From Methanolobus chelungpuianus (GTDB lineage: Archaea; Halobacteriota; Methanosarcinia; Methanosarcinales; Methanosarcinaceae), in contig NZ_JTEO01000004.1 of NCBI RefSeq assembly GCF_024500045.1, forward strand, positions 682,001 through 746,000: a stretch of 64,000 bases of DNA, written 5' to 3'. Numbering within the stretch: position 1 is the stretch's first letter; the number at the start of each line of letters is the position of its first letter. Positions 3,521 through 61,617 of this stretch are shown in pieces. Under the pieces are notes generated by a model that saw only the letters and a list, made by a program, of their open reading frames with translations, ran no database searches and had not been told where the DNA came from. The position numbers were made by a program, and so were the translations under genes.

Positions 3521-4720
3521 TCAGCGTTTGAGTTCCGCCAGCATTTGACGAGCTTTATTATTCTGCAAAACCAACTGCAATATATCAGGTAATTTTGCCT
3601 CATATTTCCCTATCTCATCAAGTGCCTGACGATCAAGGACAAGGGAGCATTGTGAACAGAATCTATCATCTGGCTTGAGTACATTACTGCACCTAGGACA
3701 CTTTTTAAGAGTCACGTGACGCTTATCTTCGGTCTTAAGACCACACTTCTCGAAGATGCGGTCATTAATCTCTTGGTCTGTAAAATTACCATATATCTTG
3801 AACATCTGTGAGGATCCTTTGGACCATCCGGCCCGGTGCTTTATTTCCTGCTCGTTGTAGCCGTCCAGGATCCAGTGAGTAATCGCAAGGTGCCTGAAGC
3901 TGTGAGGGTTCACCCTCTTCTTAATGCCTGCCTTAGCCCCAATATCCACAATTGTCTTCCTCATGGACTTGTAGCTTAATGGTTCCATGTTCTTGTCCCT
4001 TGTAACCCACAGAGGGGCTTCCGGATCGTCCTTGAGGGGATGTATGGCCAACCATTGGTTAAGGTATCCTGTAGACCATGTGATGGGGATACCCTTGGCC
4101 GGTGTGGTCTTCTTTGACTTTGATGTCTTGGAGATGTAGATTATAGCCCCATATTGGTTGAACTCGACATTCTTTATCCTGCAGGACGCCAAGGCACCTA
4201 TACGCATGCCAGAGTCAGCCAGGACAGCAATAACGGCCTTATCTCGGGGGTGCCTGCACGCCTCCAGGAGGGTGTCAAATTCCTTCTGTGTGAGGAGATC
4301 AGAGGGTTGTACAGGGGAATCTTCCTTGTTAAGCTTGAGGTCTCTTACCCACTTGGGAGGTTCGTCATTATGCATCCATCTCATGAGCTTCTTGATGAGC
4401 TTCTTGTAGTTCCACAGGCTTCCTGCAGAGAGCTTCTTAACGTCCTCCACATAGAACAGCAGTCTCTCAAGGTCTTCATGGTCGAAGTCCTGAAGGGGCT
4501 TGTCATAGCCTATTGTCTTAAGAGTCTGGTACATCCGTGTGGTATAGTTTACATACCAAGTAACTGTATTCTTGGCGAGGCCTTCCCTCCGGAGAGCTCT
4601 AAAAAAGGCTTCAAGCTTCTCCCGGTCTGCAGGCTCGATCTCTGCCCGGTTAAACCTATCCATGGCATGCTCAAAAGCATTGTCCAGACTGTGAATATCA
4701 TCTACATTGCGAGTCATCAC
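3521..4720 (-). CDS. Tyrosine recombinase/integrase with C-terminal zinc ribbon
   Basis: A 399-aa site-specific recombinase of the XerC/XerD-like archaeal integrase family, expected to integrate and excise the element. An N-terminal SAM-like core-binding domain (about residues 25-120) precedes the catalytic domain. The catalytic set is visible: Arg in DSGMRIGAL, Lys in SKTSKSKKT, HSFRHLAITHW (H-x2-R-H), HRAGW and the nucleophile Tyr in FKIYGNF. The C-terminus adds a C-x2-C-x11-C-x2-C zinc ribbon (CPRC ... CSQC), common in archaeal plasmid and virus integrases. It lies 78 bp downstream of the 4799-5299 gene on the same strand, probably in one transcript. No tRNA gene is adjacent, so the attachment site is not evident. 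Confidence 0.92.
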   Translation of the reverse strand: MMTRNVDDIHSLDNAFEHAMDRFNRAEIEPADREKLEAFFRALRREGLAKNTVTWYVNYTTRMYQTLKTIGYDKPLQDFDHEDLERLLFYVEDVKKLSAGSLWNYKKLIKKLMRWMHNDEPPKWVRDLKLNKEDSPVQPSDLLTQKEFDTLLEACRHPRDKAVIAVLADSGMRIGALASCRIKNVEFNQYGAIIYISKTSKSKKTTPAKGIPITWSTGYLNQWLAIHPLKDDPEAPLWVTRDKNMEPLSYKSMRKTIVDIGAKAGIKKRVNPHSFRHLAITHWILDGYNEQEIKHRAGWSKGSSQMFKIYGNFTDQEINDRIFEKCGLKTEDKRHVTLKKCPRCSNVLKPDDRFCSQCSLVLDRQALDEIGKYEAKLPDILQLVLQNNKARQMLAELKR

Positions 4721-5299: not shown

Positions 5300-5421
5300 G
5301 AGTGATTGCAGAAATAAGGATTATAAAAGATACACAAATTTAATGTGCTGACAATCTGATCAAAGCTCTAACGATGCATGAACATATTTATACTGAACTA
5401 AATAAGTTCCTAAGGTAGGAC

Positions 5422-5529
5422 GAGACACCCTCTGTCACCACGCTTCAGGTGCCTCTTCCCTGCGAACCAGGATATTCCCCAACTTCCCGGCAACTTCTAC
5501 TGTTGATAACCCGCGCGTTACTCCCGCGC
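5422..5529 (-). ncRNA. Three-hairpin RNA element, copy 1 (diverged)
   Basis: On the plus strand three hairpins follow each other: GAGACACC (5422-5429) with GGTGCCTC (5448-5455), one A-C mismatch, loop containing CACCACGC; a weaker stem around 5465-5490 with loop CCCC; and GCGCG (5513-5517) with CGCGC (5525-5529). The order, spacing and loop sequences match the copies at 57229 and 58585. Minus-strand orientation is taken from those copies, where a conserved promoter lies just beyond hairpin 3. Here that promoter is not recognisable, so this copy may be inactive. It abuts the end of the integrated element. Confidence 0.5.
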
Positions 5530-5587
5530 CCACAATTAAAACTTAAGACTTCCTGTTACTTAACTTAATCCCAGCTTAATGAAAGAA

Positions 5588-54131: not shown

Positions 54132-54364
54132 AGCTGCAACGATGTTTTAAAGCAGGCAGATCTTGCTTGCTTTTTCTAATTTTGATACCGCCGTTCACAT
54201 AAGAAAGCGAGTTATGCAGGGCTCTGCTCCGGGCCTGTTTTCATAGTTTATGTAAGAAGCATGAATTATATATCTGTTTTTAACTTTATGAAATATCCTA
54301 AATTATTTTAAATAGGCCTGTGACATATATCCACTGGGATTTCCAGGAAAATGCCTGGATCAAC

Positions 54365-55168
54365 ATGCCGGAAAATGTGATACTAATGATGGAGCTCTTG
54401 GATATTGTGTTCATGTCAGAGAAGAGAAAAGGAGTTCTTCTTTCCCTGTATACCGGCTCCAAGGAGATGCAGGCTCTTCTCAAGTCACTCCGGACAACCA
54501 GGCAGGCACTCCTTCCGCAAATCAGGATACTTGAGAACAGTTGTCTCGTATCCCACAATAAGGACACATACGAGCTGACAGCTATCGGCAGGCTGATCGC
54601 TGACAGGATGATACCTCTGTTAGGCACTATTAAAGTACTGGATGTTGATATCGATTACTGGGGCAGGCATAATATCGACTTTATCCCTCCCTATCTGATG
54701 AAACGACTGCAGGAACTTGGGGAATGTAGTGTGGTTGTGCCTTCACTGCAGGAAATGCATGAGTTTAACAGGGATGTGCACAACAGATCGCTGGAATCGG
54801 GATCCTTTTTTGAAGTGTCCTCCTCCTTCAAGTCAGACTTCCGGATGCTGTTCTCAGATCTGGCCCAAAGGGGAGTCAGGATGTCATTTATTATCTCTTC
54901 CGAGCTGATGGACTATCTTAAAAAAGAACGTTATGAAGACTTTAAGCAATATCTGGGGACAGATGGAACTGAGTTTTACCTGTACCCCAAAAGGATGCCT
55001 TTCATAACTTTTGTTCAGAACGATTTCTGCCTCCTGCTCGAGATGCTGACAAAGGAGGGGACCTGTGATAATACACAACTTGTCTGCTGTGACCCGGGTG
55101 CTCTTAACTGGGGGAGGGAGTTGTTCGAGCATTTCAGGCATAACTCCACACTCATAAGCGGGATATGA
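54365..55168 (+). CDS. FilR1/DUF1724-family winged-helix regulator 1
   Basis: A 267-aa regulator with an N-terminal ArsR-like winged helix (LDIVFMSEKRKGVLLSLYTG; recognition region TTRQALLPQIRIL), then the DYWGRHNIDFIPPYL hinge and the FilR1-middle/DUF1724 domain, ending DPGALNWGRELFEHF. Relatives in Methanosarcina (the Msr regulators) control methyltransferase genes. It is the first and most N-terminally divergent of eight copies in this window. A GTG at 54320 would add 15 residues that other copies lack. Confidence 0.85.
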   Translation: MPENVILMMELLDIVFMSEKRKGVLLSLYTGSKEMQALLKSLRTTRQALLPQIRILENSCLVSHNKDTYELTAIGRLIADRMIPLLGTIKVLDVDIDYWGRHNIDFIPPYLMKRLQELGECSVVVPSLQEMHEFNRDVHNRSLESGSFFEVSSSFKSDFRMLFSDLAQRGVRMSFIISSELMDYLKKERYEDFKQYLGTDGTEFYLYPKRMPFITFVQNDFCLLLEMLTKEGTCDNTQLVCCDPGALNWGRELFEHFRHNSTLISGI

Positions 55169-55404
55169 TCCCAGAATAGTTAAAATGCATCTATAAGAAA
55201 GAGAAATGGGCCCGTTTGTGGAAATCCACTTACAGGGTCCACTGATAGGTGCCTGGCAGTTAGCAGTGGGGATTCAGTATGGAGAATCCAGTAACGGGGA
55301 CCTCCTGCCAGCCACACTATGTAATACTTAATTTTTTAAGATAATTAAGATTATATATTATAGCGCCTATTTATTTTTGCAGTTAAAAACGTCCGGGTGG
55401 TAGC
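55169..55404. other. Intergenic region with possible folded RNA at 55235-55311
   Basis: CTGGCAG (55253-55259) and CTGCCAG (55305-55311) can close a domain that contains a perfect hairpin, GGATTC (55270-55275) with GAATCC (55284-55289). GGTCC/GGACC can also pair. A TATA-like TTATATATTATAG follows at about 55350, probably serving the next gene. It is a weak RNA or terminator candidate. Confidence 0.3.
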
Positions 55405-56037
55405 TTGAAAAGATGGCTTAAGACCACATACACCAAAGCTTTTTGCATTCTCTTATCTGTTCTGGTAGTTATACTTCTGGCAGGTCTTGTATACTCCGAG
55501 GAGTTCAGCGAGAGTGAACAGGCTAAGAACAAGCCAAGACTTAATGCATATAAGGTTTCCGGTTCGCCTGTCATACTCGTAGACAATCCATCGGCACGCA
55601 ATCCCACATGGGAAGAGCTGATGGGGTTCCTGGAAGAAGATGATACCGATCGCATCCTGTATCAGCTCGATAGTTTCAATTGCATCGATTTTGCAGAACG
55701 GCTGCACAATAATGCCGAGCGCAGGGGCTTCAGGGCAGCTTATGTATCTGTCAGCTTTCATGACAGGCAGAACGGACATGCTATAAACGCCTTTGAAACA
55801 GCAGATAAGGGATTGGTCTTCATCGACTGTACAGGCGCCGAGAACCCGCTTGGGGAGCTGGATAGCAACGACAAGGTTGCCTATATATTGCCGGACCGGG
55901 AATACGGGTCGATCTCAATATATTATACCGACACCCCCGAGTATGAGTTCTACGAGCTGAGAAAGGATAAGCGTTTAAAGGGTTTCTTTAAAAGTATCGG
56001 CACGGTCAAAGGTACAAGGATATTCTGGGAAATGTGA
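55405..56037 (+). CDS. Exported cysteine-peptidase/transglutaminase-fold protein
   Basis: A 210-aa protein with an N-terminal membrane anchor or signal (FCILLSVLVVILLAGLVY). The soluble part has an ordered Cys, His, Asp set: Cys in DSFNCIDFAERLHNNA, His in NGHAINAFET, and Asp in GLVFIDCTGAEN. This matches the transglutaminase-like/papain-like superfamily. The substrate is unknown; it probably acts on the outer membrane face. The start is TTG at 55405, with GGGTGG 3-4 nt upstream. It interrupts the regulator array. Confidence 0.72.
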   Translation: MKRWLKTTYTKAFCILLSVLVVILLAGLVYSEEFSESEQAKNKPRLNAYKVSGSPVILVDNPSARNPTWEELMGFLEEDDTDRILYQLDSFNCIDFAERLHNNAERRGFRAAYVSVSFHDRQNGHAINAFETADKGLVFIDCTGAENPLGELDSNDKVAYILPDREYGSISIYYTDTPEYEFYELRKDKRLKGFFKSIGTVKGTRIFWEM

Positions 56038-56231
56038 TCTTCAGGACATACGTCCTCGGATAGGGATTCACAGAAAGTTACTAAAATCCGGGCTTTATAC
56101 TTTTTTATATTCATGAATAATAATCTATAGTCCTGTCTTTATTTAATTCATTATAAATACAATTGGCATATTCTCTATGTTGTTGGAGTGGAGAGTATTG
56201 AAATTACGATTACCTGAGAGGATGTACTGAG

Positions 56232-57050
56232 ATGAGAAAAACGTTGGTTGATGTATTGTTCATGTCTGAAAAACGAAAGAATGTGCTATTATTGCTGCAG
56301 GAAGGTCCGAAGGAAACCCAGTCAATCCTTGATAAGCTAAAGACAACAAGGACTGCGTTGCTTCCCCAGATGAGAGTGCTTGAAGAATCTTTTCTTGTTG
56401 TTCATTATGATGATATCTACGCCCTCACAAAGATCGGGGAACTGATCGTTAATGAAATGAGGTCCCTGCTGGATACTGTTGATGTCCTGGATGTGGATAT
56501 AGAATACTGGGGAACGCATAAGCTGGATTTTGTCCCTCCTCGCCTTCTGGCAAGGATAAATGAACTCGGAATATGCAGGGTGGTAAGTCCCTCCATCACA
56601 GAGATCTTTGAGGTCAATAATGAATTCCATGAGACTTCAAAAAGATCACGTTCCCTCTTCAGGATCACGACCTTCCTGTACCCTAACTATCCCATGCTCT
56701 TGTCGGAGCTGATATCAAATAATGTGGAAATTAATTTAATTATCACTGATGAACTGCTCAATAAAATAAGAACCGATAACGATCCAGGACTCAGGGAACT
56801 GAGCAAGACAGGCCTGATCAAAATTTCAATTTACCCCGGTGAAATGGGTTTCCTGTCCTTTGCATATAATGACTATCAGCTATTGCTGAATCCGATAAAG
56901 ACCGATGGGGATTTTGACAAAAAGCACATCCTTTCTGAGAATCCGGGTGCACTGGAGTGGGGAAAGGAACTTTACGGGCACTACCTGAAAGATGCAGTCC
57001 CTGTCAGCGATATATGGCAGGTCAGCAATCCTGGGTTAAGCGCTGAATGA
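56232..57050 (+). CDS. FilR1/DUF1724-family winged-helix regulator 2
   Basis: A 272-aa paralogue: DVLFMSEKRKNVLLLLQEG, recognition helix TTRTALLPQMRVL, hinge EYWGTHKLDFVPPRLL, and the end PGALEWGKELYGHY. It carries about ten more C-terminal residues than the other copies (VSNPGLSAE). GAGG lies 9 nt before the ATG. The three-hairpin element and regulator 3 follow. Confidence 0.88.
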   Translation: MRKTLVDVLFMSEKRKNVLLLLQEGPKETQSILDKLKTTRTALLPQMRVLEESFLVVHYDDIYALTKIGELIVNEMRSLLDTVDVLDVDIEYWGTHKLDFVPPRLLARINELGICRVVSPSITEIFEVNNEFHETSKRSRSLFRITTFLYPNYPMLLSELISNNVEINLIITDELLNKIRTDNDPGLRELSKTGLIKISIYPGEMGFLSFAYNDYQLLLNPIKTDGDFDKKHILSENPGALEWGKELYGHYLKDAVPVSDIWQVSNPGLSAE

Positions 57051-57228
57051 GATGCTATAATCGACATTATTTGAGGATTCTGTGCTGTTAACAGATTAAT
57101 GGAGCCATTAAGGCAACATTTCAGGAGTAACGCTGTGAAAATGCCCTCTGCAGGAAATCCTGAATCCTGATCAGAACGCCTTTTATAGAAGGAGGGCAGT
57201 TTTAGGCTCAGTGCGAATAAGGTAGTTC

Positions 57229-57329
57229 GAGACACCTGGAAACCACCACGCTTTAAGGTGTCTCTCTCCTTACGAATCCGAAATATTCCCCAATATTTCT
57301 TCTTAGGCTTGCGAGTGACCCATACTCGC
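57229..57329 (-). ncRNA. Three-hairpin RNA element, copy 2
   Basis: Three perfect hairpins: GAGACACC (57229-57236) with GGTGTCTC (57257-57264), 20-nt loop containing CCACCACGC; GAAATATT (57280-57287) with AATATTTC (57292-57299), loop CCCC; GCGAGT (57311-57316) with ACTCGC (57324-57329). Compared with copy 3 both arms change together (ACAC/GTGT to GCGC/GCGC), which is covariation. The TATA box TTATATAA lies 26 nt beyond hairpin 3 on the minus strand, so an RNA starting at hairpin 3 would present GGG, GGGG and GGTGG loops. Strand is inferred from this promoter. Confidence 0.65.
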
Positions 57330-57350
57330 ACTGCCTTATAGGTGCTTTGT

Positions 57351-57384
57351 TTATATAACCTAACCTGTTCTTAATCTCGCGAAC
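57351..57384 (-). promoter_or_regulatory. Conserved promoter of three-hairpin RNA, copy 2
   Basis: On the minus strand GGTTATATAA is a good archaeal TATA box. Directly upstream lies a box of about 20 bp, GTTC-N2-GA followed by ATTAAGAA, that is conserved with 58720-58753. Such conservation beyond the transcript is expected for a regulated promoter and is the main reason to place the RNA on the minus strand. Confidence 0.55.
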
Positions 57385-57538
57385 GACTATGTAATTTGCT
57401 GGCAGGTAATGTTCTAACGGCATTAAAAGTTGAGAGGGCATTTAAGATTATAATCCCGCGTACTGAATCCGGAGGATATTCAGAGTTAAATACATAGACA
57501 TAATACATAAGAGTATATGCCAGGCCGGAGGTTCCAGC

Positions 57539-58327
57539 ATGAAGAAAGATTTGCTAGAGACCATATTTGCTTCTGAAAAACGGAAAAATGTGCTTTTAAT
57601 GCTACTTGAAGGTCCTGCCGAAATGGAGACTTTTCTGAGGTCCATTAAGACTACAAGACAAGCCCTACTTCCACAGATCCGCGTTCTTGAAGAAAGCAAC
57701 CTTGTAAGGCAAAAAAAAGACATTTATGAGCTGACCACCATCGGAAAGCTGATTGCAGAAGAAATGAAGCCTCTGATAGGTACGCTTGGCGTATTCGACA
57801 GCAGCATGGATTACTGGGGAGAGAGGGAAATGGGTTTCATTCCTCCTCACTTGCTCCTAAGGCTTCGTGAGATAGGTCCATGCACGGTCGTTTCAAACAT
57901 CCCTCCCGCAGAGAGTTATTCTCCCAGCAAACAGGCAGTAGAGAGTGGAAAGAGGTCAAAGAGCCAGATTTCAGTCACTACATTCCTCTTTCCAAATTTC
58001 CCATCCATACTTGCCGACTTCAAGCAGCAAGGAGTGAAGATGTGTCTGGTGGTTTCCCCGGAGCTTCTTGAAAAAATGAGACAGACCAGGGATGACAAAT
58101 ACAGGGGCCTCTTAAATAGTGACACAGTTGATATCTTTGTATATCGGGGCAGGATGGACTTTATGGCATTCGGATACAACGACTTCAGCTTCATGATGAG
58201 AATGTTCACAAAAACAGGCGAGCCGGACCAGAAATACGTAATATCCTCCAGTCCTTCTGCACTTGAATGGGGAAAAGAGCTTTTTAATCACTACCTGAAG
58301 GATGCTGTACCGGTGACTGAAATATAA
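57539..58327 (+). CDS. FilR1/DUF1724-family winged-helix regulator 3
   Basis: A 262-aa paralogue: ETIFASEKRKNVLLMLLEG, TTRQALLPQIRVL, hinge DYWGEREMGFIPPHLL, and end PSALEWGKELFNHYLKDAVP. GGAGGT lies 6 nt before the ATG. It is transcribed head-to-head with the three-hairpin element copy 2 (promoters about 100 bp apart). The middle domain (VSNIPPAESYSP) differs most from the other copies, which suggests a different ligand. Confidence 0.88.
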   Translation: MKKDLLETIFASEKRKNVLLMLLEGPAEMETFLRSIKTTRQALLPQIRVLEESNLVRQKKDIYELTTIGKLIAEEMKPLIGTLGVFDSSMDYWGEREMGFIPPHLLLRLREIGPCTVVSNIPPAESYSPSKQAVESGKRSKSQISVTTFLFPNFPSILADFKQQGVKMCLVVSPELLEKMRQTRDDKYRGLLNSDTVDIFVYRGRMDFMAFGYNDFSFMMRMFTKTGEPDQKYVISSSPSALEWGKELFNHYLKDAVPVTEI

Positions 58328-58584
58328 GCTTATGACACGAGACTCACGTTCAACAAGACATAGAGGCAATTCTGCAGATGTCCCATCAGGGAAATACCCC
58401 TGGAAGGAAGGCATGGACAGTAGTGGGAATCCTTTTTTATACTTATAATCACACTCAAGCGCTGAGTGTATAAGATCATCTGAGATGGCTGGAAATAATG
58501 ACGCTTTAGCCTGTCTCTGTTCCTGCAAAGCGGGATATCCCATATCCTGACGTGTTCATAAGCTTTGTATTTATGTAGTAGAAT

Positions 58585-58694
58585 GAGGCGCCTGGAAACC
58601 ACCACGCTTTAAGGCGCCTCTCTTCTTAACGGATCCGAGATGTTCCCCAGCATCTCTCTGTCATTCCGCTCCCCATTTGCGAGCACCCCTTCGC
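58585..58694 (-). ncRNA. Three-hairpin RNA element, copy 3
   Basis: GAGGCGCC (58585-58592) with GGCGCCTC (58613-58620), identical loop to copy 2; GAGATGTT (58637-58644) with AGCATCTC (58649-58656), a G-U pair, loop CCCC; GCGAG (58679-58683) with TTCGC (58690-58694), a G-U pair, loop CACCCC. Stem bases differ from copy 2 but pairing is kept. TTATATAA at 58720-58727 on the minus strand is 30 nt from hairpin 3. A T7 run next to it on the plus strand would alternatively be a terminator, so strand remains inferred. Confidence 0.65.
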
Positions 58695-58719
58695 CCGCAA
58701 CATATAGTAAGTCCTTTTT

Positions 58720-58753
58720 TTATATAACCTGAACCTTTCTTAATGTCATGAAC
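58720..58753 (-). promoter_or_regulatory. Conserved promoter of three-hairpin RNA, copy 3
   Basis: Minus-strand GGTTATATAAAA with the same upstream box as copy 2: GTTC-N2-GA followed by ATTAAGAA. The two promoters align over about 34 bp with two single-base gaps. Confidence 0.55.
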
Positions 58754-58921
58754 TATATTGTGTTTTGTTTATCAATGATCTTTTAATGATATTGAAATTT
58801 CACAGCATATTAAAACAGGCCTGTTTAATGTTTTATGATGGCTGTTCCATATAAATAATACAAGTTACATATTGTTTGCAGGAATGTTATACGAATATGC
58901 TTTCCCGAGGTTGTGCCGCAT

Positions 58922-59704
58922 ATGAAAAAGTTGCTGCTTGATGTGATATTCGCATCAGAGAAAAGGAATAGGGTGATCCTGCTCCTGCAAAAAGGCCCTC
59001 TGGAAATGAAAGTCCTTCTGAGGGAACTGGATACGACAAGGCAGGCATTACTTCCACAGATCAGGATCCTGGAAGATCATCATCTTGTCGCTGGCTCTAA
59101 TGACTCCTACGAACTGACAGCTATCGGTAGGCTGATAGCTGATAAAATGGGGCCTCTTCTGGGAACTCTCGCAGTTCTGGATAATGATGTCGATTACTGG
59201 GGAAAGCATTGGATCGACTTTATTCCGGCTCATCTTCTGGAAAGGATCAGTGATATCAGGGGTTGCAGTATAGTCCAGCCCAGCCTGATGAACCTGTATG
59301 AGATGAACATGGATTTCATTGAAAGTGCTAAAAGATCCGGCTCACTGTTCTTCATATCTTCTTTTATGCAACCCAATTTCTCCCAGATACTGCGACAGTT
59401 CGTCGAGAACAACATTGATGTTTCGATCATCGTGAACCGGGAGCTGCTGGACAAGATGAAGAGGGAATCACATGTGAGCTTTAATAAGTTCATATCCACC
59501 GGCAGAGTTAGGTTCTACCTTTACCCAGGGGAATTCAAATTCCTCTCCTTATCACTTAGCGATGATTGTGCAGTCCTGAGGCTATTCACCATAGGTGGCG
59601 GGTTCAGTAATAAACAACTTGTCTGCTGCACTCCCGAAGCTCGCGGGTGGAATAAGGACCTTTTCGATCACTACCTCAAGGATTCAATCCCAATAACCGA
59701 TTGA
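58922..59704 (+). CDS. FilR1/DUF1724-family winged-helix regulator 4
   Basis: A 260-aa paralogue: LDVIFASEKRNRVILLLQKG, TTRQALLPQIRIL, hinge DYWGKHWIDFIPAHLL, and end FDHYLKDSIPITD. Its middle domain is closest to regulator 1 (both keep QLVCC near the end). ATG 58922 follows GAGG by 10 nt; a GTG at 58913 is too near it. It is head-to-head with three-hairpin element copy 3, 170 bp away. Confidence 0.88.
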   Translation: MKKLLLDVIFASEKRNRVILLLQKGPLEMKVLLRELDTTRQALLPQIRILEDHHLVAGSNDSYELTAIGRLIADKMGPLLGTLAVLDNDVDYWGKHWIDFIPAHLLERISDIRGCSIVQPSLMNLYEMNMDFIESAKRSGSLFFISSFMQPNFSQILRQFVENNIDVSIIVNRELLDKMKRESHVSFNKFISTGRVRFYLYPGEFKFLSLSLSDDCAVLRLFTIGGGFSNKQLVCCTPEARGWNKDLFDHYLKDSIPITD

Positions 59705-59953
59705 TGTGTGCATCATCGTCTGTAGGGCCGTGGTTCTGCGCCGCTTGCAGGGGTGTGGGAGCGATTCAGGGGATTTAAGTTTGTGAGGCGGATAGTTACA
59801 TATTATCTGTTATCAGGTTCTTTGTGTCCAAAGTTAGATCCTTATTTTATTTAAATGAGTATAAATATTATGAGACGCATCTCTAATTTGCTTAAATTAC
59901 TGTGTCTGATATGAAATGTATGGGATCGTTATTCCAGCAAGGATGTGCAGCAA

Positions 59954-60739
59954 TTGAAGAAGCCATTACTTGACGTTGTATTTGCATCTGACAAGCGAAA
60001 GAATGTTCTCCTTCTTTTGCAGGACGGAGCGAAAGAGATGGGGAATCTTCTCAGTGCTTTGAACACAACGAGAACTGCATTACTTCCTCAGATACGAATA
60101 CTCGAAGAGCATTATCTCGTTTCACATATCCTGGATCGCTATGAACTGACACCTATTGGCAAGCTGCTCGTCGATAGTTTGTCCTCTTTGCTGGCTGCTA
60201 CTGAGGTTCTTGATGAGGATATCGATTACTGGGGGGACCATAAGCTGGATTTCCTTCCACCTCATCTCCTGAAAAGAATAGGCCAGCTTCGGAAATGCAG
60301 GATCGTGACTCCCTCTTTTGCTGACGTGTTTAATCTCAATGAAGAGATCCTGAGCACATCGCCTATATCAGGATCACATCATGGGTTTGTGACTTTCTAT
60401 CATCCTTTGTTTCCTCAGTTCTTTGCAAAGATGGTCTCAAACAATGTAAATATATACATGATAATACCGCAGGACGTACTTGACAGATTCAAAGCAGAAG
60501 AGTCGATGCTACTTAAAGAGACTATGAAAAGTGAATTATTCCACTTGTTTGTGTATCCCGAAAAACCGGATTTCATCGCTCTTGTGTATAATGACTATTA
60601 TACTTTTGTACGCCTGCTGAAAAATAACGGCGAGTTCGGCAACAGGTATATCATCTGTAACTCAGAGGAAAGTCACGAATGGGCAAAAGAGCTTTATGAC
60701 CACTACTTAGGAAAGTCTGTTCAGATATCGGAGATATGA
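59954..60739 (+). CDS. FilR1/DUF1724-family winged-helix regulator 5
   Basis: A 261-aa paralogue: LDVVFASDKRKNVLLLLQDG, TTRTALLPQIRIL, hinge DYWGDHKLDFLPPHLL, and end YDHYLGKSVQISEI. The start is probably TTG 59954, which aligns with the MKKPL of the others and has AAGGAT 11 nt upstream; a GTG at 59945 is also possible. No three-hairpin element precedes it. It is closest to regulator 6, with which it is convergent. Confidence 0.88.
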   Translation: MKKPLLDVVFASDKRKNVLLLLQDGAKEMGNLLSALNTTRTALLPQIRILEEHYLVSHILDRYELTPIGKLLVDSLSSLLAATEVLDEDIDYWGDHKLDFLPPHLLKRIGQLRKCRIVTPSFADVFNLNEEILSTSPISGSHHGFVTFYHPLFPQFFAKMVSNNVNIYMIIPQDVLDRFKAEESMLLKETMKSELFHLFVYPEKPDFIALVYNDYYTFVRLLKNNGEFGNRYIICNSEESHEWAKELYDHYLGKSVQISEI

Positions 60740-60831
60740 CCGGCTTTTTTATAAGTGTCCCTATCAAGGCGTTTTCAGTCTGATCTTAGTGCTTAAATGA
60801 GCACTTTATAAAACAAAACCGGCCAACGAAG

Positions 60832-61617
60832 TCAGATCTCTCTTACAGGAACGGAATCCTTCAGATAGTACTCATAAAGCTCTCGATTCCAGTCAACCGG
60901 GTCATGACCTCTGCATAGCATGAACCTGTGGTCAAACTCTCCGTTGTTCTTTAACATGCATGTAAGGGAGTGAGTATCGTCAAATGTGAAGTACAGTAAA
61001 TCCATATTTTTATTGTAGACATACATGTTAAAGGATTCATTCTTAATTAAATCCGCAAATACCGCCTGATATTCTGCTTTGATCTTGTCAAAGACCTCAC
61101 GAGAAAATATGTAGTGTAATGTAAGGCCAGATTCCAGCAGTTCTTTGATTATGGGCTCAAAATTAGGATATAGTATAGTAGTAACCGTATAAACCGACCT
61201 GGATAAGCTATAACCGGGGTTAAGGGACTTATGGATAGAGAATAGTTCTGTAAGGTCAGGATTTATTATTTCGCAATTTCGCAGCTTGTATATTTTCCCG
61301 AAGAGATGGGAGGGGATAAAATCAAGGTTGCGGCTTCCCCAGTAGTCAATATCGTTCTCAAAAGGCTGGATTATACCCAGCAGATGGGCCATCTCATCAA
61401 CGACCAGTTTTCCAATGGTTGTCAGTTCATAGCGATCCAGGGTGTGTGAAACGAGATAATGCTCTTCGAGCATCCTCATCTGAGGAAGCAGCGACTGCCT
61501 ATTCGTTTTAAGCGAGACGAGAATGTCATCCATCTCCTTCACTCCATCCTGCAAAAGAAGGAGGACATTCTTTCTCTTGTCAGACGCAAATATTATATCA
61601 AGTAGTGACTTTTTCAT
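60832..61617 (-). CDS. FilR1/DUF1724-family winged-helix regulator 6
   Basis: A 261-aa paralogue on the minus strand: LDIIFASDKRKNVLLLLQDG, recognition region TNRQSLLPQMRML (the usual TT is TN here), hinge DYWGSRNLDFIPSHL, and end YEYYLKDSVPVREI. GAGGATGAG precedes the ATG. The gene is tail-to-tail with regulator 5, sharing the short 60740-60831 gap, where a T-rich stretch could act as a bidirectional terminator. Confidence 0.88.
   Translation of the reverse strand: MKKSLLDIIFASDKRKNVLLLLQDGVKEMDDILVSLKTNRQSLLPQMRMLEEHYLVSHTLDRYELTTIGKLVVDEMAHLLGIIQPFENDIDYWGSRNLDFIPSHLFGKIYKLRNCEIINPDLTELFSIHKSLNPGYSLSRSVYTVTTILYPNFEPIIKELLESGLTLHYIFSREVFDKIKAEYQAVFADLIKNESFNMYVYNKNMDLLYFTFDDTHSLTCMLKNNGEFDHRFMLCRGHDPVDWNRELYEYYLKDSVPVREI

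Follow-up and report, generated by a model that had tools for sequence, protein, structure and literature searches.

A candidate small RNA gene family of three-hairpin elements in Methanolobus that has expanded together with a subfamily of FilR1 regulators

The window, a 64,000-nucleotide stretch of the Methanolobus chelungpuianus genome (contig NZ_JTEO01000004.1, positions 682,001 to 746,000), contains a cluster of FilR1 (PF08350) paralogues at 54320-61617, among which lie copies of a short element with three hairpins (Table 1). A sequence-only reading had placed copies of this element at three positions and had given their loop sequences; all three were recovered with these loops, with covariance model scores of 101 bits (57218-57302), 99.8 bits (58574-58659), and 54.6 bits (5411-5491). 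The second copy is indeed present, but it belongs to a tandem pair whose diverged first unit had been overlooked. Copy 1 folded with a z score of -5.7 on the plus strand. The diverged copy at 5422 also exists, but its proposed three-hairpin structure was only partly borne out, as hairpin 2 is poorly paired and the fold is modest overall (z = -1.4). Approximately 0.7 kb from this copy, at 3524-4720, lies a gene whose product, a tyrosine integrase (PF00589), has a zinc-ribbon tail.

Table 1. Features of the element copies and neighboring genes in the window
Feature	Position	Strand	Details
Regulator gene of the FilR1 subfamily, upstream of copy 1	56232-57050	+	
Plus TATA-like box upstream of copy 1	57181-57187	+	TTTTATA
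Hairpin 1, copy 1	57229-57264	-	GAGACACC/GGTGTCTC; loop CCACCACGC (+), GCGTGGTGG (-); model match, covariation
Hairpin 2, copy 1	57280-57299	-	GAAATATT/AATATTTC; loop CCCC (+), GGGG (-); covariation
Hairpin 3, copy 1	57310-57330	-	TGCGAGT/ACTCGCA; predicted 5' end of minus RNA
Minus TATA-like box, copy 1	57351-57358	-	TTATATAA; ~20 nt from hairpin 3
FilR1 (PF08350) regulator gene between copies 1 and 2	57539-58327	+	
Plus TATA-like box upstream of tandem pair	58436-58441	+	
Diverged first unit of tandem pair	58471-58551	-	30.3 bits, E 3e-5
Hairpin 1, copy 2	58585-58620	-	GAGGCGCC/GGCGCCTC
Hairpin 2, copy 2	58637-58656	-	GAGATGTT/AGCATCTC
Hairpin 3, copy 2	58677-58700	-	
Minus TATA-like box, copy 2	58720-58727	-	
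Regulator gene of the FilR1 subfamily, downstream of copy 2	58913-59704	+	
Hairpin 1, diverged copy	5422-5455	-	Subfamily common to C10:61556 and C4:791601 (same genome)
Hairpin 3, diverged copy	5513-5529	-	GCGCG/CGCGC
Minus TATA-like box, diverged copy	5556-5563	-	TTAAGTAA

The copies form a family, as had been proposed, but a much larger one than three. The covariance model (R1), which covers hairpins 1 and 2 in 85 positions and was built from 17 units, found 22 units in the M. chelungpuianus genome; the sequence of copy 1 used as a query gave 16 matches there. Tandem pairs in this genome had units approximately 105 to 115 nt apart (C2:566443/566551 and C4:468382/468490). Between 1 and 31 units per genome were present in 12 of 27 Methanolobus species. 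Among 112 genomes of the taxonomic family, 12 had matches, all of them Methanolobus, and the same 12 were obtained from 186 genomes of the order. The model had no match in the 26 other genera tested within these sets, although distant relatives there could be missed because Infernal applies stricter filters in large searches. In total, 165 units were assigned to 130 loci, 95 with a single unit and 35 with a tandem pair. No Rfam family matched at gathering score, with nothing credible at E values up to 5, and the plasmid collection contained no match to the element. Thus, no known mobile repeat was encountered in these two resources, in agreement with the first reading. Five IMG/VR contigs carrying a 19-nt loop pattern were rejected as family members.

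Several individual loci were unusual. Two tandem pairs in one genome (L097:2031-2221 and L098:2038-2228, G043) are identical, including the near-upstream sequence, and represent a recent duplication. At L181:2016-2126 (G046), a weak match of 22 bits overlaps a strong one on the opposite strand, probably because the hairpins are nearly palindromic. Six species (L110, L172, L187, L189, L191, and L107, at approximately 2030-2130 in each; G000:C5:5443-5504) carry another, single-copy element, in which the shared hairpin 1 is preceded by a conserved 200-nt part with repeated GAAAAACGG and with GGTGGTT complementary to the hairpin-1 loop; its conservation ends directly after hairpin 1.

The claim that selection acts on RNA structure was upheld by the strong covariation among the 165 units, and it withstood the enlargement of the alignment. 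In hairpins 1 and 2, each of the 16 stem pairs showed changes on both sides among 108 distinct rows, in which 95.1% of the cells were paired; fitting the rows to the model pushes these counts upward. In an alignment that was not fitted (A2), both-side changes were found in 8 of the 16 pairs. None of 500 shuffles reached the observed pairing and changes; the shuffles ignore relatedness, and the measures that count pairs and pair types are more robust and were extreme here. Sliding the partners lowered pairing to 45 to 62% in every slid register. The compensatory changes go beyond chance, as in a structured noncoding RNA family. The loops were nearly invariant while the stems covaried, and the single-stranded linkers were conserved as strongly as the stems. 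In three groups of orthologs and paralogs, the RNA and TATA regions remained aligned while the distal flanks drifted. Gene conversion among paralogues could add to this conservation.

A dispersed repeat acting at the DNA level, either a mobile element of the MITE or REP type or a protein-binding site with no RNA function, could give rise to scattered copies and to recent identical duplications such as that of L097 and L098. The balance of G.U and A.C cells in hairpins 1 and 2 is what a DNA palindrome would produce, and the GGTAG before hairpin 1 resembles the tetranucleotides of REP elements. Against such a repeat stand the promoter motifs, which have the right spacing at either end, linkers conserved like stems, retention at orthologous sites, and the lack of a match in Rfam or among plasmids, and we regard this explanation as very doubtful. 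A search for an empty site in a near relative (G055) gave no alignable site, the flanks being not alignable.

TATA-like motifs were found at both ends of the element. On the minus strand, a motif reading TATWTAACCTAAACC on the plus strand lies 60 to 69 nt past the end of the model at most loci, and it is kept in approximately 115 of 130 loci (counted by hand) at a nearly fixed distance from hairpin 3. A minus promoter had been described as conserved in two copies; its conservation stands, but it is not limited to two. With a stricter pattern, the minus TATA was present at 89 of 126 loci compared with 10 of 127 control windows. Beyond it, TTAAT is also conserved, and ACGAAY is found in many loci. 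The plus-strand box (TTTATA), mostly 24 to 48 nt before the model, occurred at 84 of 126 loci versus 11 of 127 control windows. At the level of motifs, the loci thus carry putative promoters of their own at both ends, enriched over controls. A differential RNA sequencing study of M. psychrophilus R15 gives a spacing of 19 to 22 nt between TATA box and transcription start (PMC5378194), which, applied to the minus TATA, predicts an RNA start at the hairpin-3 foot.

The pattern of wobble pairs also leaned toward the minus strand. In the unique stems of hairpins 1 and 2, 55 cells were G.U on the plus strand and 74 on the minus strand, while the common type of hairpin 3, read on the minus strand, had 9 G.U versus 2 A.C variable cells and a constant G.U (22 of 24). 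Altogether, 83 cells favored the minus strand and 57 the plus strand (p = 0.03 assuming independent cells, which is optimistic because the cells come from related paralogues); for hairpins 1 and 2 alone, the lean had a p value of 0.11. At the tip of hairpin 1, the pair was G.U on the minus strand in 35 of 38 cases and would be A.C on the plus strand. The earlier statement that Watson-Crick pairs become G.U without loss of pairing therefore held only in part, as many or more changes being A.C on the plus strand and G.U on the minus strand. T-tracts were enriched on both sides of the loci, so termination does not choose the strand. A small minus-strand open reading frame with an AUG in hairpin 2 was discarded, the AUG being absent from many copies in an alignment read by eye. 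Motif position and wobble lean agree with the proposed minus RNA that would begin with hairpin 3 and display G-rich loops; from these sequence features, we favor the minus strand as the source of the main RNA, and facing transcription from the other end is likely.

The opposite assignment, in which the plus strand is the functional RNA and its C-rich loops pair with G-rich sites resembling Shine-Dalgarno sequences, as for Methanosarcina mazei sRNA41 and sRNA154 or Listeria LhrC, has several points in its favor: the BRE/TATA-like box upstream, the conserved upstream stretch of FilR1-linked loci, and the greater frequency of G-rich words in ribosome-binding than in control windows (10 and 1 for GGGGA, 12 and 1 for GGGAG, and 5 and 0 for GGTGG). 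However, the plus TATA is missing in approximately one-third of the loci and stands at a variable distance, and full pairing of the tip of hairpin 1 and of the extension of hairpin 3 is seen on the minus strand only. In addition, C-rich probes showed no better affinity for FilR1 start regions than shuffled sequences. Loops complementary to Shine-Dalgarno sequences, as claimed earlier, are thus a property of the plus strand only and showed no special affinity for the FilR1 starts tested. We consider this assignment rather unlikely. Listeria LhrC, a bacterial family of multiple sRNA copies with repeated loop motifs, resembles the Methanolobus family in these two respects but differs in being bacterial and in having C/U-rich loops and few copies.

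The association with FilR1 genes was pronounced. A FilR1 gene was found near 56 of the 130 loci (within 450 nt upstream or 700 nt downstream), in 36 cases upstream on the same strand and often at 76 to 83 nt, compared with a chance expectation of approximately 2%, a figure that we estimated from the number of genes and the size of the genome and that does not allow for the nonindependence of duplicated cassettes. The M. chelungpuianus genome had 39 FilR1 matches, versus 6 to 20 in Methanolobus genomes lacking the RNA. Over 27 genomes, RNA copy number correlated with the number of neighbor-like FilR1 subfamily genes (Spearman 0.73, uncorrected for phylogeny) and more weakly with that of other FilR1 genes (0.62); for the same subfamily in the 12 RNA-positive genomes, the coefficient was 0.81. 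FilR1-linked copies (e.g., L163, L164, and L179) share a conserved AAAATATTCC..GCAGGAAAA..ATTTTCGATTACGAGAA stretch that follows the stop codon of FilR1 and precedes the plus TATA; this stretch is possibly an operator.

The 36 elements directly downstream of a FilR1 gene on its strand, many at a constant short distance, are what would be seen if the element were a 3' untranslated region or leader of FilR1 messages that travels with the duplicated genes. However, 74 of the 130 elements have no FilR1 neighbor within the limits, and the remaining neighbors lie upstream and downstream in both orientations, which leaves a cis element of this kind hardly probable at all. The start of the FilR1 mRNA was also considered as a direct target. 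In duplex tests, the minus-strand hairpin-1 loop and linker paired with FilR1 start regions better than with shuffled sequences and other genes, but in the within-gene control the start was not the best-pairing window. As better windows occurred elsewhere in the FilR1 genes, and as the sequences are homologous, this target was dropped. The comparison with FilR1 genes from RNA-less genomes was weak, the start pattern having caught only 12 of the fetched genes.

Taken together, we favor, with middling confidence, the interpretation that the three-hairpin element belongs to a multi-copy sRNA gene family specific to Methanolobus. Transcription would proceed on the minus strand from the TATA box downstream of hairpin 3, starting at the hairpin-3 foot, and would yield an RNA of approximately 110 to 150 nt with three hairpins, or of approximately 250 nt from tandem pairs. 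This RNA would display the invariant G-rich loops GGGGAA, GGGG, and GUGGUGG and a G-rich linker, GGGAGUGGA. With a plus promoter at many loci, both a sense and an antisense RNA may be produced, their loops being complementary. Most likely, the products are trans-acting sRNAs, mainly from the minus strand, with the G-rich loops as the candidate mode of action; their putative targets would be C-rich RNA sites, opposite-strand transcripts included, and the RNA may be regulated by cold. We prefer loop-initiated base pairing because the loops do not vary and because the two strands could supply loops that complement each other.

An extension of this scheme, which we judge to be unlikely, would be a genus-wide sense/antisense network: each locus would make two facing RNAs whose loops (GGGG with CCCC and GUGGUG with CACCAC) kiss across copies, so that any minus RNA could regulate any plus RNA, including FilR1 read-through messages, and cold would shift the balance. 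The nearly invariant loops on covarying stems, the tandem units in 35 of 130 loci, and the very high copy number would suit titration, in which G-rich loops sequester an RNA-binding protein and tandems and copies add sites. RNAs of the CsrB/RsmZ type also have repeated hairpins with G-rich loops; these are single long RNAs, whereas the Methanolobus family consists of many dispersed genes. No candidate protein emerged, and CsrA is not known from archaea; we judge titration to be quite improbable.

The closest described arrangement is that of Methanosarcina mazei sRNA162 and sRNA171, which have three stem-loops, are encoded next to an ArsR-type regulator gene, were duplicated together with the regulator and promoters, and act on MM2441 through an unstructured linker (PMC3510493). 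That system has two copies compared with 20 to 30 here, and the model had no match in the other genera tested. M. mazei sRNA41, for which pairing to ribosome-binding sites has been proposed (review PMC5867862), resembles the plus-strand reading of the family, but the better-supported strand here has G-rich, not C-rich, loops. Homology with sRNA41 or sRNA162 was not supported: among the order's other genera that were tested, Methanosarcina included by taxonomy, the model found no matches, and no Rfam family matched.

A more direct connection may exist within the genus. The M. psychrophilus R15 study (PMC5378194, Li et al. 2015) reports 195 intergenic sRNA start sites, mutually antisense sRNAs from some intergenic regions, and nine cold-induced sRNAs, described as "highly conserved," that have a common motif upstream of their promoters; for these nine, its main text mentions neither structure nor copy number nor a link to FilR1. 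Genome G043, with 23 units by the covariance model, is very probably that of R15, as its fibrillarin gene at 1.893 Mb (Mpsy_1937) and Hsp20 gene at 0.863 Mb (Mpsy_0869) fit the R15 numbering; however, a second Hsp20 gene (Mpsy_0075) was not at approximately 75 kb, where this identity predicts it. The nine sRNAs thus come from a Methanolobus species and very probably from the G043 genome itself, and they are intergenic and highly conserved. We consider it likely that they belong to the family.

Very few archaeal sRNAs have a known structure or mechanism. The family described here is absent from Rfam, compact, and strongly covarying; as far as searched, it is confined to one methanogen genus, where it reaches 31 units in a single genome and grows in number with regulators of the methanogenesis type. 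If the cold-induced set of R15 is this family, the structure, the strand, and the distribution across the genus would be in hand for those sRNAs, and a question about the cold response of methanogens would become testable.
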